Part shown: positions 4,870 to 24,091 of the stretch, in pieces | Position numbering within the stretch: the stretch's first letter is position 1 | Layout of the letters: the number at the start of each line of letters is the position of its first letter | Origin: Sarcomyxa edulis | Taxonomy: Eukaryota > Basidiomycota > Agaricomycetes > Agaricales > Mycenaceae | NCBI GenBank assembly: GCA_009761415.1 | Contig: QUOL01000016.1 | Span: 1 to 64,000, forward strand | DNA length: 64,000 nucleotides | Reading direction: 5' to 3' | The notes under the pieces: model-generated | Seen by the model: only the letters and a program-made list of their open reading frames with translations | Databases searched by the model: none | Told to the model about the DNA's origin: nothing | Made by a program: the position numbers and the translations under genes

Positions 4870-6248
4870 CTACAAGAACGCCATAGCAATCTCCTCCTCG
4901 TCCGCCTCATCGATAGCATCCTCGATCAAGACGCGATACGCCAAACCAATTTCCTTCATTACTTGATCAATAATCGGGGTCATATGATCAACGACAACGG
5001 GGCTTAGCACGCCAAAAGCGGACGAATCACTGGCACCGTCGAGAAGACGGGACCTAGAATTGCGAACGATGGCATCCATTTTCTCGCTGCGTGCGATACT
5101 GGAATCAGATCGTGGCCGAGGATGGTGCTCCGGAGACAGGCGAATGACTGGACGTCTGGGGTCGATACGCGAAAGGGAGCCAGAAGCCACGTTACGAAGG
5201 AGGGGAAGGGCTGACGAACTAGCAGTCGGGTTCGCCGATGTCTTAATCTCACCGGACGCCTCGCTGGAAACGACTTCGGGCCTTTTTAGGACCTTGATGC
5301 AGCCGGTAGCGCGAGCCATTAATTCGCCTACAAAGGGGAAAGAATTTCTATGGTTGCAGTTGTGTCCGTCACTACAGGGAGAAGGCTCACTGAGGTTATC
5401 CTCTCCACCTACGAGATTGCATGCGGACTGCTTCCCTTCACAGAAGTCGCATGCTTGAGACCTGAAACCGGGGCAAGAAACGTCATTGCGAATACATTCG
5501 GAACATCGGTAGTCCTTGAAGAGGGTAAAAGATGGGGTCAATGACTTGAAAAACATAGGATGAGATACGGGGAAAGACTGACTCTGGCTCGGATAAAAAA
5601 GAGGCGGTTCTTTCTGGATGCTCTATCCTGTTTCGCTGAAGAAAGTGTTCGATAGGCTTCAACTGCTGGGAGGACGGTGATTTTGGGTACGGGGAAGCCG
5701 GTAACTTTTCTCGACCGACGGGTAGGTTGGCTGGTCCGTTCCCTCCCCGGAGAGTCACTTTGGGGCTCGACATCGCTAGCAGCTACGACCATTCGGACGC
5801 GGGCAACTTTAAATGACCGGCTTACGGGCGCGAGAAGAGTACTTACAAGAATCGGCCAACTCGTCGCTCGAAAACTCAGGATCGAAATTAGCAACGGCCA
5901 CGGTGCGCGGAAGATTATACGAAATGGCCTCGAGAAGAAAGTCGGGAACGTAGGGAAAGTTATTAATGAACTTTATAACGGACGAATTCAATTCCGGAAA
6001 ATTGTGGAAATAGGCTGGCGGAGCCCTAGGATAACCGATCGATAAAAGGGTGAACATCATGGACCTCAATTCTTTCGACGACTTCGTGATACGATCAGGC
6101 ATTAATTGCCTGTAAACACCGAAAAGCGAACCGGGAATTCGTCTAGTCGATATAAGGGCGCTTCGCTGAGCAGCGGAGAGGGTTCGCAAATCAGTATCAC
6201 CAGAAAGGGCGGACAAGAGAGGCTGTGCGACGGTGCCATCCAGAATAT
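4870..6248 (-). CDS. Antisense gene A: Zn2Cys6-like cysteine-cluster protein
   Basis: Minus-strand exons 6248-5847, 5782-5583 (or starting at 5806) and 5514-4870 keep frame through introns 5783-5846 (GTAAGT donor) and 5515-5582 (GTCAGT donor). The first exon could not be fixed, so the 5' end is partial. The N-terminal domain contains S-T-R-R-I-P-G-S and P-Y-V-P-D-F-L-L-E-A-I. The middle is basic. Right after the last intron comes a cluster of six cysteines spaced C-x2-C-x6-C-x7-C-x2-C-x6-C, the spacing of the fungal binuclear zinc cluster, although the usual run of basic residues is weak. The acidic C-terminus ends D-E-E-E-I-A-M-A-F-L. Gene B (12941-14703) is a clear paralogue with the same domain order and the same intron before the cysteines. 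No function is known. DNA or RNA binding is only an inference from the cysteine pattern. Confidence 0.75.
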
Positions 6249-7041
6249 CTGAACAAAAAACTTGTTATCAAACCAACTATGGACGATGAAGGAATATCGC
6301 GAACCCGTGATCGACCTATTAAACTTTCCTGAAAAAGCACCAGTGGTGGACGACATATCTAAGAACCCTGATGGACGAAGAAGATACCGTCAATAAAAGA
6401 GGTTTCGAGAATAAAAGACCTCTCCTAAAAAGAATCTCAGCCCGGGTATCTCCAGCCACGTGGAAAAGAAGCCGAATCGATTGCCGAAACGATAAGGTCT
6501 TTGGTAAACAACCGCTCACAAAAAGAAGGATGGCGATCTATGAGGAGAAGAGGAAAAGGATGCTGCTACGCACTAATAGCAATAAGAACCTGGAAGTCAA
6601 AATACGAACGTTAAATTGGAAGAACACGAAAGGAAGAAATACGAAGAACCGAAATACGAGACAAGCAAGAAAGAATAGTATGGTTGGCGCATGGGGCTTA
6701 TAACCTCGTAACGGAACGGATAGAGAGCGACGGCTCTCCTGTACACAGTGACGAAATACTGCGAAAAAGACCACGGACGACAAACGATCGAAAGAAATTG
6801 GAAGAAAACGACTATGCGGGGTTCGGAGACGGTAGATCTGGCTGGCCAGCGGATCTACTGACGCAGACCGAACCCAATTATGCGCTGATATGATAAAAGT
6901 ATGCAACTCACGACGTTTTACAGATTTACGAGGAGACCGAGACGCTGGGTCTCACACTATGCAAAATTATGAACGAATTATGCGCCTGTTATCAGGCATT
7001 TATTTTACAAGAGACAAGGAATCGGAAACTCATCGGACGGT
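6249..7041. other. Stretch between antisense genes A and C, no confident gene
   Basis: The first 250 bases are the 5' side of gene A. The minus strand around 6445-6465 reads V-A-G-D-T-R-A-E-I, matching V-P-G-D-T-R-N-E-I upstream of gene B, so a short upstream exon or conserved leader probably lies here. From about 6700 the sequence is almost the same as the inner element from about 15175, marking the start of the duplicated block. Plus-strand open frames here are low-complexity K/R/N shadows. I see no other gene. Confidence 0.5.
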
Positions 7042-7977
7042 CTACAGAATGGTAGTATCAGGTACCGCTCCAGCTCCTCGACGATTAGCCCTTGCCCCTC
7101 CGCGACCTCTCACACGCGTCGCACCGTTCCGAGGATCTACCTGTCCGAAAGCTCCAGGGCCGAAATGAACTTGGTGGAGGCCTCCGAGACGAGGATCGGG
7201 AACGTCTCCATGAAGACGGACCTCTTCAAAGCCCTCTTTTACGGGAAACCTCGCGACGAAGGGGACAAGAGGATATTGAGGAGCAGGAAGAACAGGATTG
7301 GGAACGAAAGCCGCCCGCAATTTGAGCAGGTCGTTAACTTGCTGCTGCTTCATTTCGGGGAGCACGCCGTACACGTTGTACGCATCGGACGACTCAAATC
7401 CATCGAAATCCAGGGCAGTTCCGACGTATCCGACCTAGAAAAAGACGAAAAGAAATAAATCAACGAAGAATGAGAACCAAGAAATATGTAAAACGTGCCT
7501 GGGCAACCATCTCGCTCTTCACCGACGACAAAAGATACCCAACGTTCCTAACGTTGACCGCAACGTAGTCCCCCTCGAAACCAAAGTTCTTCAGAAAGAA
7601 CTCGAGCATGGCGACGGTAGTGGTGGCTTGAGCGGGAATTGGAATGGTATCCCAAGAGCCTGATTTAATGGCCTCGGAGGCTCGGAGTTTCATAGCTTGA
7701 TGCTGGACGGACGATGTTGAAAGAGGAACGATGAAGGAAAAACAAGCGAGCCGCTTACTACGTAATTGACGATCCGGGTGAGGAGGGTCCTGACCCAGAG
7801 CCTTTCCTCGAGAGGAACGTCCGTCGGACACCTCCCATTAACGGAGAGATGAACGATGCCTAGGAGGCTACGAATTGACCGAGACCAGATGGTGGTCGGA
7901 GACCTCTCATTCTCGAGGTCGGGATCCTGGGGATTTTCGGGAAAGCGATTTGCAGACAAACGGAGAATAAAGGACAT
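7042..7977 (-). CDS. Antisense gene C, outer copy: 271-residue protein of unknown function
   Basis: Exons 7977-7759, 7702-7499 and 7434-7042 (219+204+393 nt) give 271 residues. Intron 1 is GT-AG (GTAAGC). Intron 2 begins GCACGT and is read as GC-AG, and both keep phase 0. The protein starts MSFILRLSANR, contains I-W-S-R-S-I-R-S-L-L-G-I-V and M-L-E-F-F-L-K-N-F, and ends in a Gly/Arg-rich tail (R-G-R-G-G-A-R-A-N-R-R-G). In the tail exon the inner copy differs from it by two silent changes at adjacent Val and Gly codons, where the alternative frame would have a stop, so this frame is preferred. A TATATAAA lies about 52 nt upstream of the ATG. There is no known domain. It resembles the family of D, E, G and H only distantly. 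Confidence 0.7.
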
Positions 7978-8028
7978 CGTTGATGGAACTTTACTGACTT
8001 AAGGATCAGAGCAAACGATTCGGGGAGG

Positions 8029-8036
8029 TTTATATA
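8029..8036 (-). promoter_or_regulatory. TATA box of antisense gene C
   Basis: On the minus strand this reads TATATAAA, about 52 nt before the ATG of gene C. The inner copy has the same sequence at 16509-16516 before its gene C. It supports a separate minus-strand promoter inside the element. Confidence 0.6.
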
Positions 8037-8078
8037 TGCAGACTACAATAAGTGGCATATGATTCTGGGAGCGTTACT

Positions 8079-8797
8079 TTACTCCGTCGTTTCCTCCTCC
8101 GACCCTGGCCAGTCCTCCGCGTCGCTATATCCTGCACCTTCGGACTCCCCCTCGACTACGACAACGCGCTTAGGTACGACCCTTTCGAGGAGATCGAGAC
8201 GGATCGATCTGGTCATCGCGCTTTCCAACGCGGCATCCCCGGGCTTCTCGTACTCCGGCCAATCGAAGGCATCTTCAGCCGACGCGTAAGCCGCCAGGGC
8301 GCGTATGCTAAGCTCGGTAAGAGCTCGGACGGCTTCGACCTCCCAATGAATGGGGCTTGCTGGCTGAATTCGGACAGCCCGACAAATCAAGCGCAAATGG
8401 CTAATCGTTCTATTCATCTCGGACGGAATCATGTATAAACGCCTGTCCTGCTTGTTCAGCTCCTGCCACTGGCTGTGGAAATGGACCTGTTACCGATCAA
8501 GTGAAAACCCGTTAAACAATGAGATCGCTAAGGGTCGAGCTTAGACCAACGTACCGCGAGGAGCAACACGATTTGCGCATTGCAGTAGTAGGGAACCCTC
8601 TCGCGACCAGTTAAAGCTACGAAGTAGCCATCGGGCCCGAGTTCACGGAATATAAAATCGGCAACGAGGCCGACAGCGGGGCGCAGGAGGCACCTGAGAT
8701 AGTGAATCATTCCGTCACGATCAAGGATATCGAACGTTGCTGCCTCTTGGGCAAGAGTGTTCAAAAGGACTTGGTGTAGGGGTTCCATAATTTTCAT
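8079..8797 (-). CDS. Antisense gene D, outer copy: 216-residue family protein
   Basis: Exons 8797-8555 and 8486-8079 (243+408 nt) are joined by a 68-nt intron with a GTACGT donor and an AACAG acceptor, giving 216 residues. The N-terminal half carries the family signature in the form D-G-M-I-H-Y-L-R-C-L-L-R-P-A-V-G-L-V, then Y-F-V-A-L-T-G-R and a short hydrophobic helix. The C-terminal half is acidic (W-P-G-S-E-E-E-T-T-E). Exon 1 is identical at protein level in the inner copy, and exon 2 differs at three residues. A TATAAAA lies at 8839-8845, about 42 nt upstream of the ATG. The gene runs against the retrotransposon transcript. It has no recognised domain and no signal peptide. Confidence 0.75.
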
Positions 8798-8838
8798 GGG
8801 CTCTGCGGTGACCTGTACGGAGGAATTGATTCACCCTT

Positions 8839-8845
8839 TTTTATA
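8839..8845 (-). promoter_or_regulatory. TATA box of antisense gene D
   Basis: The minus strand reads TATAAAA, 42-48 nt before the ATG at 8797. In the inner element TATAAAG is found at 17318-17324, the same distance from its gene D. Confidence 0.55.
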
Positions 8846-8883
8846 CTAAAAATATCGCGCTATTCAGCTATCGGACACCCCTT

Positions 8884-9479
8884 CTACTTGCCCGTACCCT
8901 CCCCTGCCAACCGTATCACGAACTCCGGAAATTCCACGGCAGCTGCCTCTCGGTGCATTACAGGGACGATAGACCAAAGGAACTCCTTCGTTAAATCCTT
9001 CCTCTTCACAAGTACATCCTCATCGTACCCGAGCTCAACTCCGTGATGGATAAGGAATAGCTGCACCATGCTTGCGAGGCGCAACGCTTCTGACGGAACC
9101 ACGGCCTCGTCTCCTCGGCCAATTGCCGTCACCCTATCCCTAAACCGTAGAATGGCATCCTAGAAGACGTAAGGTTAACACTCCGAAGCTCACCGAGTGA
9201 ACCACGGACGCCTACCAAATGATCCAACACGATGCGGAACCAGCCTTTCGTCTCGCTCCATATGATTGGTTCAACGGTGTCTCTCGGGGAACTCGTTATA
9301 AGATAAGCCGCGTACCCCCGCTCGACGATCTCCATCATAGGGCGGAGGCGGAACCGAAGGAAATTTGTAAAGCCCTCGGTAGGAGCGAAATCCCCGGCAA
9401 GAACTTCAGGAGGATGAGCGTACGACAAAAACTCGTCTCGGAGAGCTTGAGTAAACGATGAACTAACGACATGCGACAT
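8884..9479 (-). CDS. Antisense gene E, outer copy: 179-residue family protein
   Basis: Exons 9479-9216 and 9159-8884 (264+276 nt) flank a 56-nt intron (GTAGGC donor, TTCTAG acceptor) and give 179 residues. The family signature is very clear: E-G-F-T-N-F-L-R-F-R-L-R-P-M-M-E-I-V. It is followed by a W-S-containing segment and a leucine-rich part (R-L-A-S-M-V-Q-L-F-L-I-H-H). The inner copy differs at a few residues (for example M/V after R-P-M, V/L, F/Y). TATAAAG lies at 9522-9528, about 43 nt upstream. No known domain was recognised. Together with D, G and H it defines a paralogous set that is probably old, because the four are far more different from each other than the two element copies are. 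Confidence 0.75.
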
Positions 9480-9521
9480 TTTGGCTGGAATAACGATGGC
9501 TATCCTGCGCCAGCTGGCGTT

Positions 9522-9528
9522 CTTTATA
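9522..9528 (-). promoter_or_regulatory. TATA box of antisense gene E
   Basis: The minus strand reads TATAAAG about 43-49 nt before the gene E ATG. The inner copy has the same at 18001-18007. Confidence 0.55.
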
Positions 9529-10541
9529 CCTCATCGGACTTAGGACTGACGTCTCGGACCGATAAGAGGTGTCCGAACGGACTCCGTGCAGCCACTGTTA
9601 ACCGTTGGATTTTCCGGACCGTGCCTTATCAGAAGCAGTAAAGACGCATGTTCTTCGGTATAGATGCTCACGGAACGATTGTGAATGCCACATGCAAAAG
9701 AACACGAGCTGGCCGCCACGTCGCGCCGCTACCCTGGGACCATCTTTTCGACTATTGTCGCAGGTCCTTGCCTCACCTGATACACTTCGCCGTGTCTCGT
9801 TCCTTCGCAAAGATTTCGCAAGATCGCGGTCACATCACCCGCACACGTATTAACCCGCACAGTCTCAACTGCGCCGTAAGAACAACGACGATCAGGACGC
9901 AAGCCACCTCGATCTAAACGGCCATGACTTCATGAAGCCACTGGCGCTTGACGGCTGTCGGCTTTGAGCGCTGTAGAAATGCAACTGCATCATCTTGAAG
10001 AAGAGAACAGCATCTTGCGCCGGCCGAGTTATTGAACGGGACGAGAAGATCATCCTGACATCGCATATCGGCGAGGCTACGGAAGAACGAAATGATGACC
10101 AGGCCACTGAGCGATATAGCGAAATTGTAAAGGAGAAAAGCTCTGAAAGCATTAATAACCTCTCTCCGTTCTCATCTCACTCGCCTCCCCTCTGAACTTT
10201 CCTCTCATCAAGAGCCGCTGACGGAGTTACGAACTGTCCGCGATTCAAATGTCTGCGCACAGCGGGTGGAATCATCGGACATCGGTACCCTTTATAAAGG
10301 AGGTTGGGAGGCTGCCCGAAATCGTTGTTGCCCTCCGGACTGACAGTGCATTCCATAAACTACAAGATCTCTGAACACGGCACGCGAAAGGAGTGTTTAC
10401 CCATTAAAGTACCAACGACGACAAAAACCCCCTCGGTCACATCCAGGAAAGCTTCCCCGCTACGCGTGCGTTCTGAAATGCGAATTTCCGACTATTAGTA
10501 TCCCTCTGAGGGGCCCAAAGAACGAGACCGACGGCGCCTGC
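9529..10541. other. Conserved spacer 'F' between antisense genes E and G, coding status unresolved
   Basis: This kilobase is kept in the inner element (18008-19023) but has more indels than the flanking genes. On the + strand one frame near 9655-9700 encodes R-Y-R-C-S-R-N-D-C-E-C-H, and the two copies there differ by silent changes in the N-D-C codons. Around 9975-10130 the + strand reads a charged, coiled-coil-like segment (L-E-E-E-N-S-I-L-R, then E-R-D-E-K-I-I-L) split between two frames. On the minus strand a TATAAAG at about 10291 precedes a short ATG frame that is shortened in the inner copy. I could not build a gene that is intact in both copies. A decayed gene is likely. Confidence 0.4.
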
Positions 10542-10785
10542 TTACCAGAACACCAGGTCCTCAAATTCGGGATACTCCTTTGCCCCGCCAGTCAATGAAG
10601 CGTTAACGTCGGCCTCATCTTTTAGTGACTGAAGCATTTCCCTCCTCTGACCGACGCTGCTGAGGGCCCAGTCCCCGTGAAATCCGACCTTGTCATAAAC
10701 GATAAGACTGAACTCCATCATACGGGATACCTCTGAAGGAATTTTAAATTCGGCGGCGTTGGCATCGGTCCTGGCCCGCTGACGG
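10542..10785 (-). pseudogene. Antisense gene G, outer copy, C-terminal part cut off by the inner element
   Basis: These bases encode the last 80 or so residues of gene G (…Q-R-A-R-T-D-A-N-A-A-E onward to …F-E-D-L-V-F-W stop). The reading frame runs straight into the 5' LTR of the inner element at 10786. The missing N-terminal part is found at 22554-22913, beyond the inner element's 3' LTR. The intact version is at 19024-19626 in the inner element. Gene G of the outer element is therefore disrupted in this genome. Confidence 0.85.
10782..10785 (+). repeat. Target-site duplication (acgg), left side of inner element
   Basis: The bases acgg directly before the 5' LTR are repeated at 22554-22557 directly after the inner 3' LTR. 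The undisturbed site in the inner element's own copy of gene G (around 19262-19266) has acgg once. This fixes the element ends as TGTGAGG...CATCACA. Confidence 0.85.
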
Positions 10786-12534
10786 TGTGAGGATGCCAGC
10801 ATCCCCAGCCAAGGAATCGACAACTATACAACAACCTACTCTTATGCGACTCCCCAGACATAGCTAACTACAGAGACACTGGTGGTATTACCACAAACGA
10901 CTTACTTTTCGAATGACCGGACACTGAAAGACACCAAGTACCCGCTACTTGACGGTTCCTCCCCGAAAGCGGCCTCTTCATCCACTCACGAAACGCTAAC
11001 CCGCCTTCGGTCACGTCTCAGAACGTTTTGGAATACCTGAAATCACACACGAACAACTTCTCCGAAGGAAATCTACCGCCAGAACCCAATTCCCTATCGT
11101 CGTTTCACCTGACCGAAGGCCCAATGTACTCGATCACCTCTCCGCAGCCCCCTAGATCCTTCGGACAGATCCCAAATCGTTTCAGCAGGCTCCCTTTCAC
11201 CTCTAGAAGACCTCATCGAGAGATACTTCACCGATAAAACATTGCCACCAGTCGACATACCGCCAACGTGATGCTTACTGCCCTGAGCTGTTCTTCCTAT
11301 CAAATCGGACATATTCCCTTTACATTGTGATCTCAATTCACACCTTTCCATGCATCTGGACGCCTCGTTAAGACCTCCGTCCACCCTGACCAAGTGGTGC
11401 TACGGAATATTCTTCCCTCTGTGTTTATCACATGACACAGCACTTGTAAGCGAGGTATCGCCCGCTAACAAAGACACTACAGGTCTCCGCCTAGCAACCC
11501 ACATCAAATTCACTCTTCTCGGACAACTTTGGCCGTCGCATCTTGGAAAAATCTATCGGAAGCTCCCCATCATCCTGCTCACTCGGACATGTTTCATCCC
11601 TTCACAAATTCACCTTGCAACGCTTTCAGAAAACACCTCAGGCCCTAACCTTTCACACTGAGCGAGGTTCGGACACATCAAAACCAATACCGGATCTGTT
11701 TCATCATTGGAGATCTCGGGGACCTTGGGATGGCACTCGGGGTGAAGAATTAGGCAAGGACAGGGAAGGAATTCATATATAAAGTAGGATAGGACATGGA
11801 GAACGGTAGATAGAACCAGTGTGGACGAGAACCAGAGGAACATACCCGAATCGACCAACTACCCAGTCACTCTCTATAGGAATTCTATCTCTTTCTCATA
11901 CTTCTGAAACCGAGACAAGGAACGATTACAGGAGTCGGTCAAAACAAGAGAAAAAGGACTTGATTCAGTCGGCAGTACCACTCCCGGAACAAAGGAAGCT
12001 CTCCGAAATCAGTCCAGAACTATCCGAAACCCTCGAAGCTCTTCGAAATCAGTTCAAGAACTGTCCGAAACCTTCGATAGCTCTCCGAAGACGTTTTACA
12101 GCTATACAAAGCATCGGTCAGCTCACCAAAAGCTGTCCGAGGCCCTCGTAGGTTCTCCAAGAACGAACTTATAGCTGTCCGAAGCCCTCGATAGCTCTCC
12201 GAAGACGTTTTATAAGCCGTCCAAAGCATCGATCAGCTCTCCGAAAGCTGTCCGAGGCCTTCGTAGGTTTTCCAAGAACAAACCTATAGCTGTCCGAAGC
12301 CTCTAAACGGCTTACCGAGAACGAACCTACAAGTCCGAAGCTTACCTCTCACCTCATCATCTCATACCCACCTCACCACCGTTTTACGGACACATTATCC
12401 AAACACAAGTCATTGGGCATTAGGATTTCTCGCTACGTAAAATCCCCTCCGAGAAAACGTCACCTTACCCCCTAGAGGCGAACTATAGTTAGGAGTCTAG
12501 CACATCTACTCCTAGCGCCGCAGTCCTCATCACA
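10786..12534 (+). repeat. 5' LTR of inner element
   Basis: It starts TGTGAGGATGCC and ends CCTCATCACA, so it has TG...CA ends. A TATATAAA at 11776-11783 is a good U3 promoter for + strand transcription. Downstream of it, 11995-12335 is full of imperfect copies of a 10-12 bp unit like AGCTCTCCGAAG, arranged partly as a 114-bp block repeated twice (from 12075 and from 12189). The open frames in the LTR on both strands are not supported as genes. Confidence 0.95.
11776..11783 (+). promoter_or_regulatory. TATA box of the LTR promoter
   Basis: TATATAAA is present in all three LTRs (11776, 21795 and 25082). It lies about 990 bp into the LTR, so U3 is long and R/U5 is about 720 bp. Transcription would run on the + strand, in the direction of gag-pol. 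Confidence 0.6.
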
Positions 12535-12536
12535 AC

Positions 12537-12554
12537 TGGAGCCCACCGCGAGGG
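12537..12554 (+). other. Primer binding site of inner element
   Basis: Two bases after the LTR end, TGGAGCCCACCGCGAGGG begins with TGG, complementary to the universal tRNA 3' CCA, as expected for minus-strand priming. I do not assign the tRNA. The matching site of the outer element is left of the window. Confidence 0.7.
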
Positions 12555-12564
12555 GATTTAAAAG

Positions 12565-12828: not shown

Positions 12829-12940
12829 AACAAAATACACGTCTCTCGGTGCCCGGAATTAAAAGAAACAGGATCGTGGATTATTTTCTTATAAAAATAC
12901 ATAGGAAACAAAAATATCACTTTCAATCCAAACTACTGTT

Positions 12941-14703
12941 TTACGCGGTATCGGCCTGCTCCTCCTCGAAAATAAACCCGTATTGATCCTCAACTTGCGA
13001 TATTGCGGCATCGATAACGCCCGACAACTGATCACGGATGACCGGGGCGAGCTTACCGAAAACCTCAACACCAGCAGCGCCGTCAAGTATCTTGACCTTC
13101 AAGCCGTCAACCATTAACTTCCATTTTTCTCGACGACCTGTGACCTGCTGATTTTGGGAGGCAAACGAGGGATCGACCAAGGAAGGTCCAGGGATGCCGG
13201 ATGGCTCAACGTTACCCGTATCATCGAAACCTTCGGACCGAATTGCGGGTTCTTGCAGAGGAACGACCTTGCGAGTTTCGGGCATACGCATCTCGCCGAA
13301 AGAGATCGGCACTTCAGACAAAGCGCTACTGGGTGCTGGCTCCGCAGCGTGACGACCACCGACGAGCTTGGGTACTGCAAATAAAACAGAGAGCAATAGA
13401 TTCAAGAGGAATGCGATCCTTGAATAGAAAAGAAAACGCACCACGAATTTTTAAAGGTACGAACTGGGATCCCTCGACACCGACCGGTGAAACCTCGCGA
13501 GCCTTCCCCTTTCCCTTGTCTCTAGAAGGCATTTCTCGCCGCTCATCGATGATCGAGGGACCGGGAAGACTATCGGAGGTTTCGGGCACGGGAGCGACTT
13601 TCTTTGGGGCGATGACGATTTCCCCCAGTTCGATGGCCCGAGAAAGATCGAGAAGGCCTTCGTCTTCGTGGATGTCGCAACCGGTTCTCCGAGCAAAGCA
13701 CCTGTCGCAGGCATGACTACGATGTCCGTTACAAGTAACGTTGTGCTTGATACATCTGCTGCAACGCCAGTCCTATAAAGTGGGGTTTTTAGTACTAAGA
13801 GGAGGAACGGAAGAGAAAAAACGCACTAGATGACGAATGAGATAAGGCTGTTGAGCCTTCAAGATACGACCTGCTCTTTTCGAAGAAATACCGGGGGGCT
13901 TCTTGATGGGAACCGCGCGAGTTGCTGAGGGAGGAAGAACTACAATACGAGGACGAACGACGTCCGTATCGAACTCCTTCCTTGTGCGTTTAACTCCCCG
14001 AGGACGTCTGACTCTCATATCGGGGAACGGGGCGTCTGCTTCCGAACTCTCGGGGTTGACAGCGAACGGGGTGCCGGTGGTTGCTGGGGGTGGGTTTGTT
14101 GCATGAACTATAGCGTTGCCGCTAGGACCAGAATCGGTGTCTCCGGCTAAAAGGAATGGATCGGAATCAGTAAATGGAGAACGAGAAAATGAAAAAAAAA
14201 ACTAACTTACCGAGCTCGTCGATCTCGTCCTCGGACAAATTGGGAAACTCGGACGTCCCCAGTATCTTTTCGAAGCTACCGTACCAAGGAGCAGGAGTCT
14301 CTTCCTTCGCGGGAAGGAAGAGGGGAGTACGACGAGGAGGAAGGTTATATTCAAGGGCCTCTAGAAAGAAGTCGGGGACGACGATGAGTTGACGTACGAA
14401 GCCGATGATATCATCGTCCAACGTAGGAAATTCATCGAAGGCTGGAGGAAAGGGGGGCGTCCACCCAATGTGCAGGAATGCCACACAAACTGAATGGAGC
14501 TCCTCGCGACTTCTAGCGGTTGTTGGTCGGAGCTCCTCGACCAAACCATACTCAGTACCGGGAATTTTTCGTGACGAATTCATTGAGGCCATGACCCGTG
14601 CCGGGACCGTTGTTGTAGGAAGGCCACCGGATAGTGCCAGATTGAAAGCCTCGGAGAACGTGAAATCGGGGGCGGTCTGGGACGATGACGATGGTGGAGC
14701 CAT
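12941..14703 (-). CDS. Antisense gene B: Zn2Cys6-like cysteine-cluster protein (paralogue of gene A)
   Basis: Exons 14703-14211, 14146-13827, 13772-13442 and 13374-12941 (493+320+331+434 nt) give 525 residues. Introns have GTAAGT, GTGCGT and GTGCGT donors, and all phases agree. The start chosen is the ATG at 14703 (M-A-P-P-S-S-S-S); an upstream exon is possible. The N-terminal domain has S-S-R-K-I-P-G-T and V-V-P-D-F-F-L-E-A-L, as in gene A. A basic region (R-R-P-R-G-V-K-R-T-R-K) follows. The cysteine cluster C-x2-C-x6-C-x7-C-x2-C-x6-C comes directly after the second intron. The C-terminus is acidic, with I-L-D-G-A-A matching L-L-D-G-A-S in A. A nuclear or nucleic-acid-binding role is an inference. 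A and B are clearly diverged, unlike the other duplicated genes. Confidence 0.82.
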
Positions 14704-15521: not shown

Positions 15522-16457
15522 CTACAGAATGGTAGTATCAGGTACCGCTCCAGCTCCTCGACGATTAGCCCTTGCCCCTCCGCGACCTCTCCCACGCGTC
15601 GCAGCGTTCCGAGGATCTACCTGTCCGAAAGTTCCAGGGCCGAAATGAACTTGGTGGAGGCCTCCGAGACGAGGATCGGGAACGTCTCCATGAAGACGGA
15701 CCTCTTCAAAACCCTCTTTCACGGGAAACCTCGCGACGAAGGGGACAAGAGGATATTGAGGAGCAGGAAGAACAGGATTGGGAACGAAAGCCGCCCGCAA
15801 TCTGAGCAGGTCGTTAACTTGCTGCTGCTTCATTTCGGGGAGCACGCCGTACACGTTGTACGCATCGGACGACTCAAATCCATCGAAATCCAGGGCAGTT
15901 CCGACGTATCCGACCTAGAAAAAGACGAAAAGAAATAAATCAACGAAGAATGAGAACCAAGAAATATGTAAAACATGCCTGGGCAACCATCTCGCTCTTC
16001 ACCGACGACAAAAGATACCCAACGTTCCTAACGTTGACCGCAACGTAGTCCCCCTCGAAACCAAAGTTCTTCAGAAAGAACTCGAGCATGGCGACGGTAG
16101 AGGTGGCTTGAGCGGGAATTGGAATGGTATCCCAAGAGCCTGATTTAATGGCCTCGGAGGCTCGGAGTTTCATAGCTTGATGCTGGACGGACGATGTTGA
16201 AAGAGGAACGATGAAGGAAAAACAAGCGAGCCGCTTACTACGTAATTGACGATCCGGGTGAGGAGGGTCCTGACCCAGAGCCTTTCCTCGAGAGGAACGT
16301 CCGTCGGACACCTCCCATTAACGGAGAGATGAACGATGCCTAGGAGGCTACGAATTGACCGAGACCAGATGGTGGTCGGAGACCTCTCATTTTCGAGGTC
16401 GGGATCCTGGGGATTTTCGGGAAAGCGGTTTGCAGACAAACGGAGAATAAAGGACAT
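15522..16457 (-). CDS. Antisense gene C, inner copy
   Basis: Exons 16457-16239, 16182-15979 and 15914-15522 give the same 271-residue layout as the outer copy. The second intron starts GCATGT here and GCACGT in the outer copy, so both copies keep a GC donor. Residue differences from the outer copy include K/R, A/T, G/A and V/G in the Arg-Gly-rich tail and T/S in exon 2. The frame is intact. TATATAAA lies at 16509-16516. No function is known. Confidence 0.7.
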
Positions 16458-16558
16458 CGTTGATGGAACTTTACTGACTTAAGGATCAGAGCAAACGATT
16501 CGGGGAGGTTTATATATGCAGACTACAATAAGTGGCATATGATTCTGGGAGCGTTACT

Positions 16559-17277
16559 TTACTCCGTCGTTTCCTCCTCCGACCCTGGCCAGTCCTCTGC
16601 GTCGCTATATCCTGCACCTTCGGACTCCCCCTCGACTACGACAACGCGCTTAGGTACGACCCTTTCGAGGAGATCGAGACGGATCGATCTGGTCATCGCG
16701 CTTTCCAACGCGGCAACCCCGGGCTTCTCGTACTCCGGCCAATCGAAGGCATCTTCAGCCGACGCGTAAGCTGCCAGGGCGCGTATGCTAAGCTCGGTAA
16801 GAGCTCGGACGGCTTCGACCTCCCAATGAATGGGGCTTGCTGGCTGAATTCGGACAGCCCGACAAATCAAGCGCAAATGGCTGATCGTTCTATTCATCTC
16901 GGACGGAATCGTGTATAATCGTCTGTCCTGCTTGTTCAGGTCCTGCCACTGGCTGTGGAAGTGGACCTGTTACCGATCAAGTGAAAACCCGTTAAACGAT
17001 AAGATCGATAAGGGTCGAGTTTAGACCAACGTACCGCGAGGAGCAACACGATTTGCGCATTGCAGTAGTAGGGAACCCTCTCGCGACCAGTTAAAGCTAC
17101 GAAGTAGCCATCGGGCCCGAGTTCACGGAATATAAAATCGGCAACGAGGCCGACAGCGGGGCGCAGGAGGCACCTGAGATAGTGAATCATTCCGTCACGA
17201 TCAAGGATATCGAACGTTGCTGCCTCTTGGGCAAGAGTGTTCAAAAGGACTTGGTGTAGGGGTTCCATAATTTTCAT
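16559..17277 (-). CDS. Antisense gene D, inner copy
   Basis: Exons 17277-17035 and 16966-16559 with the same GTACGT intron give 216 residues. Exon 1 with the Y-L-R-C-L-L-R-P-A-V signature is unchanged. Exon 2 differs at three positions (E/D, M/T, D/V). Nothing breaks the frame. TATAAAG lies at 17318-17324, 41 nt before the ATG. Confidence 0.75.
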
Positions 17278-17362
17278 GGGCTCTGCGGTGACCTGTACGG
17301 AGGAATTGATTCACCCTCTTTATACTAAAAATATCGCGCTATTCAGCTATCGGACACCCCTT

Positions 17363-17958
17363 CTACTTGCCCGTACCCTCCCCTGCCAACCGTATCACGT
17401 ACTCCGGAAATTCTACGGCAACTGCCTCTCGGTGCATTACAGGGACGATAGACCAAAGGAACTCCTTCGTTAAATCCTTCCTCTTCACAAGTAGATCTTC
17501 ATCGTACCCGAGCTCAACTCCGTGATGGATAAGGAATAGCTGCACCATGCTTGCGAGGCGCAACGCTTCTGACGGAACCACGGCCTCGTCTCCTCGGCCA
17601 ATTGCCGTCACTCTATCCCTAAACCGTAGAATGGCATCCTAGAAGACGTAAGATTAACACTCCGAAGCTCACCGAGTGAACCACGGACGCCTACCAAATG
17701 ATCCAACACGATGCGGAACCAGCCTTTCGTCTCGCTCCATATGATCGGTTCAACGGTGTCTCTCGGGGAACTCGTTATAAGATAAGCCGCGTACCCCCGC
17801 TCGACGATCTCCACCATAGGGCGGAGGCGGAATCGAAGGAAGTTTGTAAAGCCCTCGGTAGGAGCGAAATCCCCGGCAAGAACTTCAGGAGGATGAGCGT
17901 ACGACAAAAACTCGTCTCGGAGAGCTTGAGTAAACGATGAACTAACGACATGCGACAT
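17363..17958 (-). CDS. Antisense gene E, inner copy
   Basis: Exons 17958-17695 and 17638-17363 give 179 residues. The signature reads F-L-R-F-R-L-R-P-M-V-E-I-V. The intron and TATA box (18001-18007) match the outer copy. The differences from the outer copy are few and mostly conservative. Confidence 0.75.
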
Positions 17959-19023
17959 TTTGGCTGGAATAACGATGGCTATCCTGCGCCAGCTGGCGTT
18001 CTTTATACCTCGTCGGACTTAGGACTGACGTCTCGGACCGATAAGAGGTGTCCGAACGGACTCCGTGCGGCAACTGTTAACCGTTGGATTTTCCGGACCA
18101 TGCCTTATCAGAAGCAGTAAAAATGCCTGTACTTCGGTATAGATGCCCACGGAACGACTGCGAATGCCACATGCAAAAGAACACGAGCTGGCCGCCACGT
18201 CGCGCCGCTACCCTGGGACCATCTTTGTCGACTATTGTCGCAGGCCCTTGCCCCACCTGATACACTTCGCCGTGTCTCGTTCCCTTCGCAAAGATTCCGC
18301 GAGTTCACAGTCACATCGCTCGCACACGTATTAACCCGAACAGTCTCAACTGCGCCGTAAGAACAACGACGGTCAGGACGCAAGCCACCTCGATCTAAAC
18401 GACTATGACTTCATGAAGCCACTGGCGCTTGACGGCTGTCGGCTTTGAGCGCTGTAGAAATGCAACTGCATCATCTTGAAGAAGAGAACAGCATCTTGCG
18501 CCGGCCGAGTTATTGAACGGGACGAGAAGATCATCCTGACATCGTATAAAGGCGAGGCTACGGAAGAACGAAATGATGACCAGGCCACTGAGCAATATAG
18601 CGAAACTGTAAAGGAGAAAAGCTCTGAAAGCATTAATAACCTCTCTCCGTTCTCATCTCACTCGCCTTCCCTCTGAACTTTCCTCTCATCAAGAGCCGCT
18701 GACTGAGTTACGAACTGTCCGCGATTCAAAATGTCTGCGCACAGCGGGTGGAATCATCGGACATCGGTACCCCTTATAAAAGAGGTTGGGAGGCTGCCCG
18801 AGACCGTCGTTGCCCTCCGAACCGACAGTGCATTCCATAAACTACAAGATATTCAAACGCGGCACGCGAAAGGAGTGTTTATCCGTTAAAGTACCAACGA
18901 CGACAAAAACCCCCTCGGTCACATCCAGGAAAGCTTCCCCGCTACGCGTGCGTTCTAAAATGCGAATTTCCGACTATTAGTATCCCTCTGAGGGGCCCAA
19001 AGAACGAGACCGACGGCGCCTGC
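17959..19023. other. Spacer 'F', inner copy
   Basis: This is the counterpart of 9529-10541. It differs by several one- to three-base indels that shorten every candidate frame, for example near 18226 and 18730. No gene is intact in both copies. Confidence 0.4.
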
Positions 19024-19626
19024 TTACCAGAACACCAGGTCCTCAAATTCGGGATACTCCTTTGCCCCGCCAGTCAATGAAGCGTTAACGTCGGCCTCAT
19101 CTTTTAGTGACTGAAGCATTTCCCTCCTCTGACCGACGCTGCTGAGGGCCCAGTCCCCATGAAATCCGACCTTGTCATAAACGATAAGACTGAACTCCAT
19201 CATACGGGATACCTCTGAAGGAATTTTAAATTCGGCGGCGTTGGCATCGGTCCTGGCCCGCTGACGGTATGCAACGATGAGTTCCTGCGCAGAAGGATTT
19301 TTTTTTAGTATCTCTGCGTTGCCCCGCTGAAAAACGGTGGAAGCCCGTACAACGTTCTCGACGAAAAACCGCATAAGCCGCCTCGACAGTGTATACTGCC
19401 CGATAACGCTATCGGTGTCATCGGGAAATGCTGTCACCCTATGGGGAAGCGTCGCCTGGATGACACCGAACATCATACGAAGGCGTTTGCGGAAGAATCC
19501 ATCGAAGCCCTCGTGCGGATAGAAGACGGGTCGAATAAAGGACGGGACGTTCAGCGTCATGAAGTAGTCGCAGAGCCTCTCGCGAGCCATTTGCATACTG
19601 CGGGCAGGCATTTCGATTTTCAACAC
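19024..19626 (-). CDS. Antisense gene G, inner copy (intact): 200-residue family protein
   Basis: A single exon encodes 200 residues. The family signature is present as E-G-F-D-G-F-F-R-K-R-L-R-M-M-F-G-V-I, followed by a helix-rich part and C-terminal P-E-F-E-D-L-V-F-W. A TATAAA lies at 19641-19646, only 15 nt before the first ATG, so translation may start at the Met six codons further in (M-P-A-R-S). The last sense codon overlaps a GTAAGC donor, so an additional 3' exon cannot be excluded. The outer copy of this gene is the one split by the inner element. Confidence 0.72.
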   Translation of the reverse strand: MLKIEMPARSMQMARERLCDYFMTLNVPSFIRPVFYPHEGFDGFFRKRLRMMFGVIQATLPHRVTAFPDDTDSVIGQYTLSRRLMRFFVENVVRASTVFQRGNAEILKKNPSAQELIVAYRQRARTDANAAEFKIPSEVSRMMEFSLIVYDKVGFHGDWALSSVGQRREMLQSLKDEADVNASLTGGAKEYPEFEDLVFW

Positions 19627-19640
19627 GACGGGACTCGTCG

Positions 19641-19646
19641 TTTATA
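19641..19646 (-). promoter_or_regulatory. TATA box of antisense gene G
   Basis: The minus strand reads TATAAA just upstream of gene G. It is also present upstream of the split outer copy near 22930. Spacing to the first ATG is short. Confidence 0.4.
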
Positions 19647-19706
19647 TGTACATGAAGACTGCATGCCCTCGATCACCTCTCCGAACCCTTCCCTCTTCTC
19701 GCCGCC

Positions 19707-20645
19707 TCATGCCCCCGACAAGCCGTTTAGTCCCTGTTCAATAATCGCTGCCCCGCCAATCAAACCGTTCCTCTCCTCTTCGGATAACGTCTCCAAAAGC
19801 AGGCGAAATGCCCCGTGTGTTGCCAAGCTCGCGAGTGGCTGGACTGTGCCTCTCCGATCAGCTCGTTGCCGCACCGCTAAAGTGTCAGAATTCTTACCGG
19901 ACAAGGCCCTTTCTACCTCGGCCACCTCCATTTCTTCGTCCTCGTCGTCCGTTGCAATACTTATGACGGATATGCCTTCGTCTTCGTTGTTAGCCGGATT
20001 CTCTTCCCCTTCGAGGCTGTTGCCCCTGTCCGTACTAATCGTACCATCTCGATGTACCCTGGGACCGCTGTATGGATGCTTCTTCAACACGGCATGCGCA
20101 TGGAACCGACCACGCGGGTCCGCCTCGATGTAATCGAAAGCGACGCCAAATGTCGATCGGCGGGCATATTCTTCTATGAAGTACAAGATAACGTCGATCT
20201 TATGTGCCTCGTCCTCGTCCTGATCCCCGGAAAACCCTACGACGTGGACACATCGCTGCACCTGGTAAACGGCGGTCACTGCTTCCTTGGGAAACGGCTC
20301 CGTGGTATCGTCCATGCACCTCCCCTTCAGTACCCATCTAAGTCTGAGCATGAATACCTTAACCTTCGCAATTAGCACGGACCCCCTGAAAGGCGCACAC
20401 GCACCCACCATGTGCTGGCACAAGATTTTAACGTGCTTTCTCAACGTGTATACACCGTGACTCGAGAACTCCGGAAGGAGAACGTCCGCCACTGCATCCT
20501 GAAAAATGCAGCTAACAACTAGGTGAACCATGGGACGGATATTGTTACGCAGGTATCCGAGGAAAGTTGCCATCGTAATATCGCCATCTATCCCGTCTAG
20601 ATCGAGGCAGCGCGTAAAGAAGAGTTCTTTTGCTATGGGATCCAT
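19707..20645 (-). CDS. Antisense gene H, inner copy: 312-residue family protein
   Basis: A single 313-codon frame. Residues 25-50 carry the signature T-F-L-G-Y-L-R-N-N-I-R-P-M-V-H-L-V. The middle is Cys/His-containing (R-C-V-H-V-V-G-F-S-G-D). Then comes a strongly acidic stretch (A-T-D-D-E-D-E-E-M-E) and a C-terminal helical region. It is the gene nearest to the 3' LTR, with its start 160 bp from it, so it may be driven by sequence between the LTR and 20645. Against the outer copy (22994-23932) I counted 17 base differences: 11 silent, the other 6 changing four residues. That pattern is expected for a protein under constraint. No known domain was recognised. Confidence 0.82.
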   Translation of the reverse strand: MDPIAKELFFTRCLDLDGIDGDITMATFLGYLRNNIRPMVHLVVSCIFQDAVADVLLPEFSSHGVYTLRKHVKILCQHMVGACAPFRGSVLIAKVKVFMLRLRWVLKGRCMDDTTEPFPKEAVTAVYQVQRCVHVVGFSGDQDEDEAHKIDVILYFIEEYARRSTFGVAFDYIEADPRGRFHAHAVLKKHPYSGPRVHRDGTISTDRGNSLEGEENPANNEDEGISVISIATDDEDEEMEVAEVERALSGKNSDTLAVRQRADRRGTVQPLASLATHGAFRLLLETLSEEERNGLIGGAAIIEQGLNGLSGA

Positions 20646-20788
20646 TTGGCTTGTTGCTTTCAGGAAAGCCCTGGCTGTCTTAACCTTGGAATTTATAGGT
20701 CCTTGGCCGGTCGTCCTTGCCCTGTTTTGGTCACGGGCACGTTGTTGTGTTTGCCCTCCGGATGATCGACCGGGGACGGTCGATATTT

Positions 20789-20804
20789 AAAAGTTAGGAG
20801 GAAG
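20789..20804 (+). other. Polypurine tract of inner element
   Basis: AAAAGTTAGGAGGAAG ends exactly at the 3' LTR. It is purine-rich apart from two T. It is in the right place to prime + strand DNA synthesis. The same tract stands at 24076-24091 in the outer element. Confidence 0.65.
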
Positions 20805-22553
20805 TGTGAGGATGCCAGCATCCCCAGCCAAGGAATCGACAACTATACAACAACCTACTCTTATGCGACTCCCCAGACATAGCTAACTACAGAGACACTG
20901 GTGGTATTACCACAAACGACTTACTTTTCGAATGACCGGACACTGAAAGACACCAAGTACCCGCTACTTGACGGTTCCTCCCCGAAAGCGGCCTCTTCAT
21001 CCACTCACGAAACGCTAACCCGCCTTCGGTCACGTCTCAGAACGTTTTGGAATACCTGAAATCACACACGAACAACTTCTCCGAAGGAAATCTACCGCCA
21101 GAACCCAATTCCCTATCGTCGTTTCACCTGACCGAAGGCCCAATGTACTCGATCACCTCTCCGCAGCCCCCTAGATCCTTCGGACAGATCCCAAATCGTT
21201 TCAGCAGGCTCCCTTTCACCTCTAGAAGACCTCATCGAGAGATACTTCACCGATAAAACATTGCCACCAGTCGACATACCGCCAACGTGATGCTTACTGC
21301 CCTGAGCTGTTCTTCCTATCAAATCGGACATATTCCCTTTACATTGTGATCTCAATTCACACCTTTCCATGCATCTGGACGCCTCGTTAAGACCTCCGTC
21401 CACCCTGACCAAGTGGTGCTACGGAATATTCTTCCCTCTGTGTTTATCACATGACACAGCACTTGTAAGCGAGGTATCGCCCGCTAACAAAGACACTACA
21501 GGTCTCCGCCTAGCAACCCACATCAAATTCACTCTTCTCGGACAACTTTGGCCGTCGCATCTTGGAAAAATCTATCGGAAGCTCCCCATCATCCTGCTCA
21601 CTCGGACATGTTTCATCCCTTCACAAATTCACCTTGCAACGCTTTCAGAGAACACCTCAGGCCCTAACCTTTCACACTGAGCGAGGTTCGGACACATCAA
21701 AACCAATACCGGATCTGTTTCATCATTGGAGATCTCGGGGACCTTGGGATGGCACTCGGGGTGAAGAATTAGGCAAGGACAGGGAAGGAATTCATATATA
21801 AAGTAGGATAGGACATGGAGAACGGTAGATAGAACCAGTGTGGACGAGAACCAGAGGAACATACCCGAATCGACCAACTACCCAGTCACTCTCTATAGGA
21901 ATTCTATCTCTTTCTCATACTTCTGAAACCGAGACAAGGAACGATTACAGGAGTCGGTCAAAACAAGAGAAAAAGGACTTGATTCAGTCGGCAGTACCAC
22001 TCCCGGAACAAAGGAAGCTCTCCGAAATCAGTCCAGAACTATCCGAAACCCTCGAAGCTCTTCGAAATCAGTTCAAGAACTGTCCGAAACCTTCGATAGC
22101 TCTCCGAAGACGTTTTACAGCTATACAAAGCATCGGTCAGCTCACCAAAAGCTGTCCGAGGCCCTCGTAGGTTCTCCAAGAACGAACTTATAGCTGTCCG
22201 AAGCCCTCGATAGCTCTCCGAAGACGTTTTATAAGCCGTCCAAAGCATCGATCAGCTCTCCGAAAGCTGTCCGAGGCCTTCGTAGGTTTTCCAAGAACAA
22301 ACCTATAGCTGTCCGAAGCCTCTAAACGGCTTACCGAGAACGAACCTACAAGTCCGAAGCTTACCTCTCACCTCATCATCTCATACCCACCTCACCACCG
22401 TTTTACGGACACATTATCCAAACACAAGTCATTGGGCATTAGGATTTCTCGCTACGTAAAATCCCCTCCGAGAAAACGTCACCTTACCCCCTAGAGGCGA
22501 ACTATAGTTAGGAGTCTAGCACATCTACTCCTAGCGCCGCAGTCCTCATCACA
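20805..22553 (+). repeat. 3' LTR of inner element
   Basis: It is colinear with 10786-12534 at a constant offset of 10019 bases. I saw one base difference (21650 g against 11631 a). It is followed by the acgg target duplication and then the rest of outer gene G. Confidence 0.95.
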
Positions 22554-22557
22554 ACGG
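22554..22557 (+). repeat. Target-site duplication (acgg), right side of inner element
   Basis: Second copy of the 4-bp acgg found at 10782-10785. Confidence 0.85.
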
Positions 22558-22913
22558 TATGCAACGATGAGTTCCTGCGCAGAAGGATTTTTTAGTATCT
22601 CTGCGTTGCCCCGCTGAAAAACGGTGGAAGCCCGTACAACGTTCTCGACGAAAAACCGCATAAGCCGCCTCGACAGCGTATACTGCCCGATAACGCTATC
22701 GGTGTCATCGGGAAATGCTGTCACCCTATGGGGAAGCGTCGCCTGGATGACACCGAACATCATACGAAGGCGTTTGCGGAAGAATCCATCGAAGCCCTCG
22801 TGCGGATAGAAGACGGGTCGAATGAAGGACGGGACGTTCAGCGTCATGAAGTAGTCGCAGAGTCTCTCGCGAGCCATTTGCATACTGCGGGCAGGCATTT
22901 CGATTTTCAACAC
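22554..22913 (-). pseudogene. Antisense gene G, outer copy, N-terminal part
   Basis: It encodes the first 120 or so residues of gene G including the family signature, then runs into the LTR. It matches 19263-19626 except for a few substitutions and one codon fewer in the Lys run (I-L-K-N against I-L-K-K-N). It belongs with 10542-10785. Confidence 0.85.
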
Positions 22914-22993
22914 GAAAAGACTCGTCGTTTATATGTACATGATGACTGCATGCCCTCGATCACCTCTCCGAACCCTTCCCTCTTCTTGCCGCC

Positions 22994-23932
22994 TCATGCC
23001 CCCGACAAATTGTTTAGTCCCTGTTCGATAATCGCCGCCCCGCCAATCAAACCGTTCCTCTCCTCTTCGGATAACGTCTCCAAAAGCAGGCGAAATGCCC
23101 CGTGTGTTGCCAAGCTTGCGAGTGGCTGGACTGTACCTCTCCGATCAGCTCGTTGCCGCACCGCTAAAGTGTCAGAATTCTTACCGGACAAGGCCCTTTC
23201 TACCTCGGCCACCTCCATTTCTTCGTCCCCGTCGTCCGTTGCAATACTTATGACGGATATGCCTTCGTCTTCGTTGTTAGCCGGATTTTCTTCCCCCTCG
23301 AGGCTGTTGCCCCTGTCCGTACTAATCGTACCATCTCGATGTACCCTGGGACCGCTGTATGGATGCTTCTTCAACACGGCATGCGCATGGAACCGACCAC
23401 GCGGGTCCGCCTCGATGTAATCGAAAGCGACGCCGAATGTCGATCGGCGGGCGTATTCTTCTATGAAGTACAAGATAACGTCGATCTTATGTGCCTCGTC
23501 CTCGTCCTGATCCCCGGAAAACCCTACGACGTGGACGCACCGCTGCACCTGGTAAACGGCGGTCACTGCTTCCTTGGGAAACGGCTCCGTGGTATCGTCC
23601 ATGCACCTCCCCTTCAGTACCCATCTAAGTCTGAGCATGAATACCTTGACCTTCGCAATTAGCACGGACCCCCTGAAAGACGCACACGCACTCACCATGT
23701 GCTGGCACAAGATTTTAACGTGCTTTCTCAACGTGTATACACCGTGACTCGAGAACTCCGGAAGGAGAACGTCCGCCACTGCATCCTGAAAAATGCAGCT
23801 AACAACTAGGTGAACCATGGGACGGATATTGTTACGCAGGTATCCGAGGAAAGTTGCCATCGTAATATCGCCATCTATCCCGTCTAGATCGAGGCAGCGC
23901 GTAAAGAAGAGTTCTTTTGCTATGGGATCCAT
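22994..23932 (-). CDS. Antisense gene H, outer copy
   Basis: This 312-residue frame is intact. It differs from the inner copy at four residues (G/S, P/S, E/G, G/N) but at 11 silent sites, by direct comparison. The G/N change alone uses three base changes in one codon. Domain layout is as described for the inner copy. Survival of the frame in two element copies, one of which has lost its own gag-pol, suggests the protein matters to the element. Confidence 0.82.
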   Translation of the reverse strand: MDPIAKELFFTRCLDLDGIDGDITMATFLGYLRNNIRPMVHLVVSCIFQDAVADVLLPEFSSHGVYTLRKHVKILCQHMVSACASFRGSVLIAKVKVFMLRLRWVLKGRCMDDTTEPFPKEAVTAVYQVQRCVHVVGFSGDQDEDEAHKIDVILYFIEEYARRSTFGVAFDYIEADPRGRFHAHAVLKKHPYSGPRVHRDGTISTDRGNSLEGEENPANNEDEGISVISIATDDGDEEMEVAEVERALSGKNSDTLAVRQRADRRGTVQPLASLATHGAFRLLLETLSEEERNGLIGGAAIIEQGLNNLSGA

Positions 23933-24075
23933 TTGGCTTGTTGCTTTCAGGAAAGCTCTGGCTGTCTTAACCTTGGAATTTATAGGTCCTTGGCCGGTCG
24001 TCCTTGCCCTGTTTTGGTCACGGGCACGTTGTTGTGTTTGCCCTGCGGATGATCGACCGGGGACGGTCGATATTT

Positions 24076-24091
24076 AAAAGTTAGGAGGAAG
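24076..24091 (+). other. Polypurine tract of outer element
   Basis: Same 16 bases as at 20789-20804, ending against the 3' LTR. Confidence 0.65.

Follow-up and report, generated by a model that had tools for sequence, protein, structure and literature searches.

The first 64,000 nucleotides of contig QUOL01000016.1 of the fungus Sarcomyxa edulis (hereafter, the window) raise the question of why a long terminal repeat (LTR) retrotransposon should carry a set of genes on the strand opposite to its own gag and pol, and what these genes may do for it. An earlier note on this DNA had described such an antisense multigene cassette between pol and the 3' LTR. The cassette is indeed found at positions 4870 to 24091, with up to seven genes. 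The region between pol and the 3' LTR is a block of antisense genes, each family member having introns among its genes and TATA boxes separate from the LTR, and is held under purifying selection; each of two families in this genome (F1, to which the elements of the window belong, and F2) carries its own CGG-containing 7-mer across LTR, gag-pol and cassette. We suggest, with a probability of about one half, that the zinc-cluster-like cassette protein AB recognises its own family by this word and activates or desilences it, that the proteins C to H help, and that the antisense orientation serves to keep the introns.

In the genome searched, 35.6 Mb in 40 contigs, the window forms the beginning of contig C8. 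Self-comparison reveals three copies of an LTR of about 1,749 bp in the window (approximately 10786-12534, 20805-22553 and 24092-25836), which belong to two copies, A and B, of one Gypsy-type element. Element A (1-10785 and 22554-25836) carries gag-pol, and its 5' end lies beyond the contig edge. Element B (10786-22553) is nested in A; it has no gag-pol and retains the cassette. The LTRs of B are one substitution apart, and the junctions read show the target site duplication ACGG on both sides of B. The third LTR, taken before as part of a tandem unit, is thus due to nested insertion, and tandem duplication is ruled out. The cassette had also been said to be kept in both copies. In the pol-less B it is open; in A, gene G is split by the insertion of B. 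The features are as follows.

1..4677, plus strand: element A, gag-protease part and pol (RNase H, integrase H2C2); frame interrupted near 4066-4129.
4870..6198, minus strand: gene AB of element A; exons 5847-6198, 5583-5806 and 4870-5514; six-cysteine cluster 5419-5505.
7042..7977, minus strand: gene C of element A; exons 7759-7977, 7508-7702 and 7042-7434; TATAAA at 8034.
8079..8797, minus strand: gene D of element A; exons 8555-8797 and 8079-8486; TATAAA at 8845.
8884..9479, minus strand: gene E of element A; exons 9216-9479 and 8884-9159; TATAAA at 9528.
9700..10300 (approximate limits), minus strand: relic of gene F of element A; TATAAA at 10296.
10542..10785, minus strand: gene G of element A, second-exon part, truncated by B; remainder at 22554-22898.
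10782..10785, unstranded: target site duplication ACGG, 5' copy (junction reading).
10786..12534, plus strand: 5' LTR of element B; ten TGTCCGA/TCGGACA motifs.
12941..14703, minus strand: gene AB of element B, 525 amino acids; exons 14211-14703, 13827-14146, 13442-13772 and 12941-13374; six-cysteine cluster 13677-13763.
15522..16457, minus strand: gene C of element B; exons 16239-16457, 15988-16182 and 15522-15914.
16559..17277, minus strand: gene D of element B; exons 17035-17277 and 16559-16966.
17363..17958, minus strand: gene E of element B; exons 17695-17958 and 17363-17638.
19024..19611, minus strand: gene G of element B; exons 19351-19611 and 19024-19284; TATAAA at 19646.
19707..20645, minus strand: gene H of element B; exons 20409-20645 and 19707-20363; TATAAA at 20697.
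20805..22553, plus strand: 3' LTR of element B (self-comparison).
22554..22557, unstranded: target site duplication ACGG, 3' copy (junction reading).
22638..22898, minus strand: gene G of element A, first exon.
22994..23932, minus strand: gene H of element A; exons 23696-23932 and 22994-23650.
24092..25836, plus strand: 3' LTR of element A (self-comparison, junction reading).

Complete copies of F1, about 17.5 kb long, are found at C40:1061733-1079251 and, on the minus strand, at C1:2004806-2022287. The C40 copy has a gag-protease frame of 878 amino acids and a pol frame of 1270 amino acids with RNase H before integrase H2C2 (Pfam). The gag-pol of the window, on the plus strand, has Pfam matches to protease, RNase H and integrase H2C2; here the pol frame is broken into one of 976 amino acids and an overlapping one of 203. 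The Pfam scan gave no match of F1 pol to PF00078; its reverse transcriptase (RT) was identified through its resemblance to pol frames elsewhere which this profile does match. Gag, protease, RT/RNase H and integrase thus stand between the LTRs in the order of Ty3/Gypsy elements. No chromodomain was found in the 1270-amino-acid pol frame (Pfam, E<=1), so that F1 does not fall among the chromoviruses. The LTR has TG..CA ends (TGTGAGGA..TCATCACA), and ACTGGAGCCC lies 3' of the 5' LTR, where a tRNA primer-binding site would be expected. The 4-bp target duplications are identical in all eight LTR pairs, as they are in the C40 copy. The two LTRs of these eight pairs differ by 0-2 substitutions and no gaps, and therefore transposition is recent. 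F1, in short, is an LTR retrotransposon of the Gypsy type with recent activity.

The genome contains at least 40 LTR copies of F1, a lower bound, as these were scored among 110 candidates. F1 pol has 14 matches of at least 99% identity and the AB gene of the B type is present at no fewer than 15 loci, so autonomous and pol-less forms are similarly numerous. Thirty LTR loci were cut out of the 40 and examined with their flanks. In sixteen of them, which are 5' LTRs, gag or B-type sequence comes next; each of the other 14, all 3' LTRs, is directly preceded by the end of the cassette. No solo LTR occurs among the 30. The linkage of cassette and 3' LTR that the earlier note asked about is therefore complete among these loci. 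Likewise, the genes were not found as single-copy host genes: in searches that scored first-look candidates only, gene C was found at E<=0.01 at 31 or more F1 loci and nine F2-type loci, and gene G at F1 loci and eight F2-type places, with no host copy of either. On these first-look searches with C and G, an origin by capture of host genes that persist in the genome is thus rejected.

All 30 flanks fit a 4-bp target site NCGN (16 5' and 14 3' flanks), in which T is never first and A never last; this is a strict choice of CpG targets. The F1 loci are clustered, with seven pairs within 50 kb against 1.34 expected (maximum of 2000 simulations, 7), a count that includes the nested pair of the window and possible shared arrays. 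Several loci lie at contig ends. There is no support for the element inserting mainly into its own copies, as F1 or F2 DNA adjoins only one of the 16 5' LTRs.

Read from the 3' LTR inwards, the cassette consists of H, G, the F relic, E, D, C and AB, all opposite to gag-pol; the gene models were built manually in the C40 copy and mapped onto the window. Gene F looks degenerate in F1 and is open in the F2 copy that was read. The introns are 40-73 bp long, and those modelled in the C40 copy and in AB of element B have GT..AG ends. In C, D, E, G and H an intron lies at a matching place preceding a P.E-like motif, although this place was used when the splice sites of H and G were chosen, which makes the agreement partly circular. 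The place has independent support, because H of F2 changes frame there and because the intron of G varies from 63 to 68 bp among copies, with the exons in frame throughout. The A-type AB is modelled with a provisional start codon. The cassette strand contains seven TATAAA boxes in 7.6 kb, against two on the other strand; five of the seven are situated 35-57 bp upstream of the ATG of H, G, E, D and C (P ~5e-7), and a sixth precedes the F relic. The introns and separate TATA boxes ascribed to several genes from the bare sequence are thus supported.

None of the 14 modelled F1 exons has a stop in the coding frame, and 12 of them are stopped in all three frames of the opposite strand. Coding on the plus strand instead is rejected on this ground; one opposite frame has a substitution pattern nearly equal to that of the coding frame. 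The proteins are in part related to each other, as had been proposed: profile comparison pairs E with G (98%) and E with H (82%) clearly and G with C (41%) suggestively, whereas other pairs reach 20% at most and one reversed control gave 9%. Against Pfam and PDB sequences C to H have no convincing relative (one match to Laminin_B at E 0.026), and no cassette protein matched in a search of viral contigs. AlphaFold models are of low confidence, with a mean predicted local distance difference test score of 46.0 for G and 46.6 for the N-terminal domain of AB. Searches of protein databases with cassette proteins gave 3, 1 and 1 matches. A relative in a public collection (source 'lgn') is 79% identical to protein H over 80% of the query, so gene H is probably not confined to this genome.

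The pattern of substitutions shows purifying selection on these genes. Compared with the C40 copy, the ratio of nonsynonymous to synonymous rates (dN/dS) is 0.02-0.10 for H (five copies), 0-0.04 for G (five whole copies), and 0-0.13, 0.15-0.30 and 0.02-0.33 for E, D and C (six copies each), with small substitution counts per gene and possible sequence exchange among copies. One stop is present in H of the C3 copy. Pooled over the five genes, the ratio of the corresponding proportions (pN/pS) is 0.06-0.11 (P 3e-10 to 6e-24) in six comparisons, not mutually independent, among four copies in all of which C, D, E, G and H are open. Two of the four have no pol; as the cassette stays open under selection there too, it probably benefits the very copy in which it resides.

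The frames are conserved outside F1 as well. A complete copy of F2 (C12:984683-1005290), whose LTRs of 2,090 bp are 100% identical, has AB-C-D-E-F-G-H in the same order and antisense orientation between pol and 3' LTR; this order was read in the one copy, and the remaining F2 loci are known as sequence matches. The two families share 77-83% identity in pol (about 79% as a single figure), where synonymous sites are saturated, and 46-68% in gag. In the cassette the identities are 45-49% for C, 44% for H, 33-41% for G, 27.5% for D and 44% for a short part of E. The 4-mers at the ends of the F2 copy, ACGG and TCGG, both fit NCGN and differ from each other, so recombination or deletion is likely. 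This copy is flanked by F1 gag-protease (L051:1-1086) and an F1 LTR (L050:2894-4001).

Outside the two families, the cassette is absent in the 9.1 kb downstream of one Gypsy RT relative (52% identity; locus L049, one of seven relatives at 50-55%). At L049:4948-7813, downstream of a Gypsy RT, there are purine/pyrimidine-rich repeats in which inverted arms reach 251 nt (91%). No LTR pair was found around a control Gypsy element.

The zinc-cluster protein named in the earlier note corresponds to AB, whose six cysteines form a zinc-cluster-like motif. The spacing C-x2-C-x6-C-x7-C-x2-C-x6-C was found in 14 of the 15 distinct AB copies read, by a search that permitted x6 or x8, and a basic stretch is seen by eye ahead of the cysteines. 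AB is more variable than its surroundings. Its nucleotide identity is about 78% in copies whose aligned stretch running from the cassette to the end of the 3' LTR is about 96% identical, so AB has been exchanged as a module. Between the C40-type and C1-type copies dS is ~0.7 and dN 0.11-0.12, and elements of the B type have yet a third version of AB. The C40 model of the gene meets frame-breaking gaps in all four C1-type copies, a stop in three of them, and one frame-breaking insertion in C3; therefore either the model misfits some copies or AB is damaged there.

The candidate binding words are TGTCCGA in F1 and CCGATCG in F2. Both contain CGG, the triplet read by Zn2Cys6 factors. TGTCCGA is the commonest word (7 against 0.27 expected) in an open ranking of 7-mers over the first 1150 bp of the F1 LTR and 150 bp upstream of six cassette TATA boxes. 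In F1 it occurs 10 times in the LTR (expected 0.27), 9 times in gag-pol (1.16), where it is the top-ranked 7-mer, and 6 times in the cassette (1.26), and 50 of its 55 occurrences in the window are within the element. In F2 the respective numbers are 0, 2 (0.96) and 2 (1.8). CCGATCG occurs 22 times in the F2 LTR (0.73), 10 times in gag-pol (1.65) and 38 times in the cassette (3.8), counts in which each site of the palindromic CCGATCGG is entered twice; the distinct places number 13, 8 and, in the cassette part on L048, 34. In F1 it is found 0, 0 and 2 times (2.25 expected in the cassette). Shuffles of the F2 LTR, gag-pol and cassette gave means of 0.60, 1.60 and 3.17 and maxima of 4, 5 and 10. 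TGTCCGA is evenly divided between the strands, 5:5 in the LTR and 5:4 in gag-pol of F1, which fits a protein reading double-stranded DNA, not RNA.

The excess extends into coding sequence. When the best word of the LTR is chosen and then counted in gag-pol, P is 3.6e-6 in F1 and 9.2e-6 in F2; the same procedure on 19 host stretches gave no P below 8e-3, and a test of a word chosen in one part was positive in none of six cases on a control Gypsy stretch. Shuffling of synonymous codons leaves an excess of the own word in F1 pol (p 0.006), F1 gag (0.021), F2 pol (0.0065) and F2 gag (0.004), and no excess of the other family's word in pol (1.0 in F1, 0.15 in F2). Each pol frame has five own-word sites, two of which encode amino acids identical in the other family.

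Several observations weigh against the reading of AB as a zinc-cluster protein that recognises its family by this word. PF00172 scores AB at 14.0 bits (E 0.054), below the cut-off of 21, and aligns over profile positions 20-31 of 39; in AB of F2 the first x6 is replaced by x8. The A-type and B-type ABs are 32% identical and share the LTR word, so there is no one-to-one correspondence between the word and the AB sequence as a whole. Gene H and both introns of the A-type AB have AAG acceptors, and the first intron of AB lacks an AG at its mapped position in the four copies of the C1 type. As to the words, five of the ten in the F1 LTR lie inside tandem repeats of ~41 and ~115 bp (window 11995-12301, downstream of the LTR TATA box), and TGTCCGA is outside the ten most enriched 7-mers of the F1 cassette alone. 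The enrichment rank of CCGATCG is first in the F2 LTR, second in the cassette and third in gag-pol. Finally, the word-in-one-part test was positive in three of five stretches of the low-complexity control L049, and is therefore not proof against low-complexity sequence.

In the mechanism that we propose, AB would bind the word of its own family on double-stranded DNA, and the family would in this way recognise its own copies. Bound AB, together with the paralogues C to H, which we infer to be its partners, may then switch on or desilence the LTR promoter and the cassette promoters, and such activation would act on autonomous and pol-less copies alike. The antisense placement would follow from established biology: introns and termination signals of antisense genes should be invisible in the sense genomic RNA, and hence spliced genes could survive reverse transcription, whereas in the sense orientation they would lose their introns. 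Among the roles that had been proposed for the cassette, the family-specific motif favours expression or anti-silencing. A stronger version, which is possible and which we put forward tentatively, is that each family in the same nucleus has a private anti-silencing system, with the antisense-encoded zinc-cluster protein and the CGG-type word changing together.

AB might instead act on the LTR and cassette promoters as a plain trans-activator or repressor and have nothing to do with silencing, the motifs of gag-pol being a marginal matter. Regulatory proteins of some retroviruses act in these ways, and the placement of the words would suit such a factor. The single TATAAA of the LTR has five motifs upstream (as TCGGACA) and five downstream (as TGTCCGA), the LTR is the densest word region in both families, and further motifs accompany TATAAA boxes of the cassette, at 48 bp upstream for E, 32 bp upstream for D and 15 bp downstream for the F relic. 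However, a factor confined to promoters needs no words in the coding regions of gag and pol, where they exceed what codon usage predicts; thus we consider plain auto-regulation unlikely. A function of the cassette outside regulation altogether, in the particle or in interaction with the host, or its origin from an unknown virus, with the motif arising secondarily from repeat turnover or from the binding of a host factor, is quite improbable. The lack of convincing relatives would leave C to H free for any role, and the LTR motifs are in part repeats, but the excess in gag and pol differs in its word between two families that share a genome, and AB has zinc-cluster-like cysteines, preceded, by eye, by a basic stretch.

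No more probable is control of integration, in which cassette proteins would tether or restrict insertion to CpG sites or repeat-rich regions, or limit copy number. It would agree with the uniform NCGN flanks, the close F1 pairs, the nesting of B in A and the F2 element bordered by F1 sequence on both sides. However, it is usually the integrase that determines which target bases are chosen, F1 or F2 sequence is rare at 5' flanks, and the pair count is swelled by the nested pair and perhaps by shared arrays. That the genes are functionless passengers, open through recent amplification, is hardly credible: the copies are young enough for it, but the low pooled pN/pS and the conservation of gene order and protein sequence in F2, at a distance where synonymous sites of pol are saturated, speak for selection. 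Self-recognition by AB with activation or desilencing of the family thus remains the reading that we prefer.

Beyond the elements, the window contains at 41993-47959 host genes for a BTB-domain protein, a phosphoglucomutase fragment and a BCS1-like AAA ATPase. Rfam and tRNA scans of the window gave no match.

LTR elements with genes beyond gag and pol are known. Those of bdelloid rotifers are reported to have captured open reading frames (ORFs), extra to gag-pol as in F1 (PMC5408684). In the open-licence literature, at the level of titles and the beginnings of abstracts, no fungal counterpart of a multigene, intron-bearing antisense cassette was found, and the main text of a paper on fungal LTR elements (PMC3248453) does not contain the word 'antisense'.

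AB resembles the fungal Zn(2)-Cys(6) factors (PF00172) in the canonical spacing of six cysteines in F1, in the CGG-containing candidate sites and in the basic stretch before the cysteines. It differs in scoring below the Pfam cut-off and in being encoded by a retrotransposon. In Gal4 the ACDxC half comes first, whereas in AB, by eye, it is second.

The closest structural analogue is formed by plant Gypsy elements of the Retand/Grande/RIRE2 type, of which F1 is not a member. Excerpts of PMC11963269 report that 63 clusters contain 104 antisense ORFs with a length of 600 bp or more, and that 57 of these ORFs have the TRP28 domain. Every representative element has at least one antisense ORF, and some young clusters have no gag or pol domains, as stated in parts of PMC11963269 and PMC7264820. 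The same excerpts describe TRP28 as predicted to bind DNA and propose a regulatory role for the plant antisense ORFs, whose function they call unknown. In common with these elements, as far as the excerpts describe them, F1 is a Gypsy element without chromodomain and with antisense ORFs in a long region between pol and the 3' LTR. In contrast to them, it has as many as seven genes, partly paralogous, that contain introns and are provided with TATA boxes, as well as a zinc-cluster-like protein and a family-specific motif. TRP28 (PF04195) was not found in the cassette proteins and exons scanned (E<=1; E<=0.1 in one scan). Antisense ORFs in LTR elements are thus known, and what is unusual here is the number of genes, their introns, their own TATA boxes and the family-specific words.

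The closest functional analogue may be the VANC system of Arabidopsis. In the sections of PMC5735166 consulted, VANC proteins bind short motifs that have accumulated in their own VANDAL families; the motifs are often tandem repeats and differ between related families, and the protein diverges. F1 and F2 share with VANDALs, so described, family-specific short motifs spread over the element and a diverging element-encoded protein. However, VANDALs are DNA transposons and VANC differs from AB as a protein; there, measurements exist of both binding and methylation loss, whereas here the likeness is one of sequence pattern. No Pfam relative of the cassette proteins lies above the cut-off, VANC itself not having been compared. 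Two families in one genome with distinct words make the regulatory hypothesis directly testable. If it is true, anti-silencing by self-recognition, shown for DNA transposons of Arabidopsis, would extend to a fungal retrotransposon, and the antisense orientation would be explained as the one in which intron-bearing genes survive retrotransposition.

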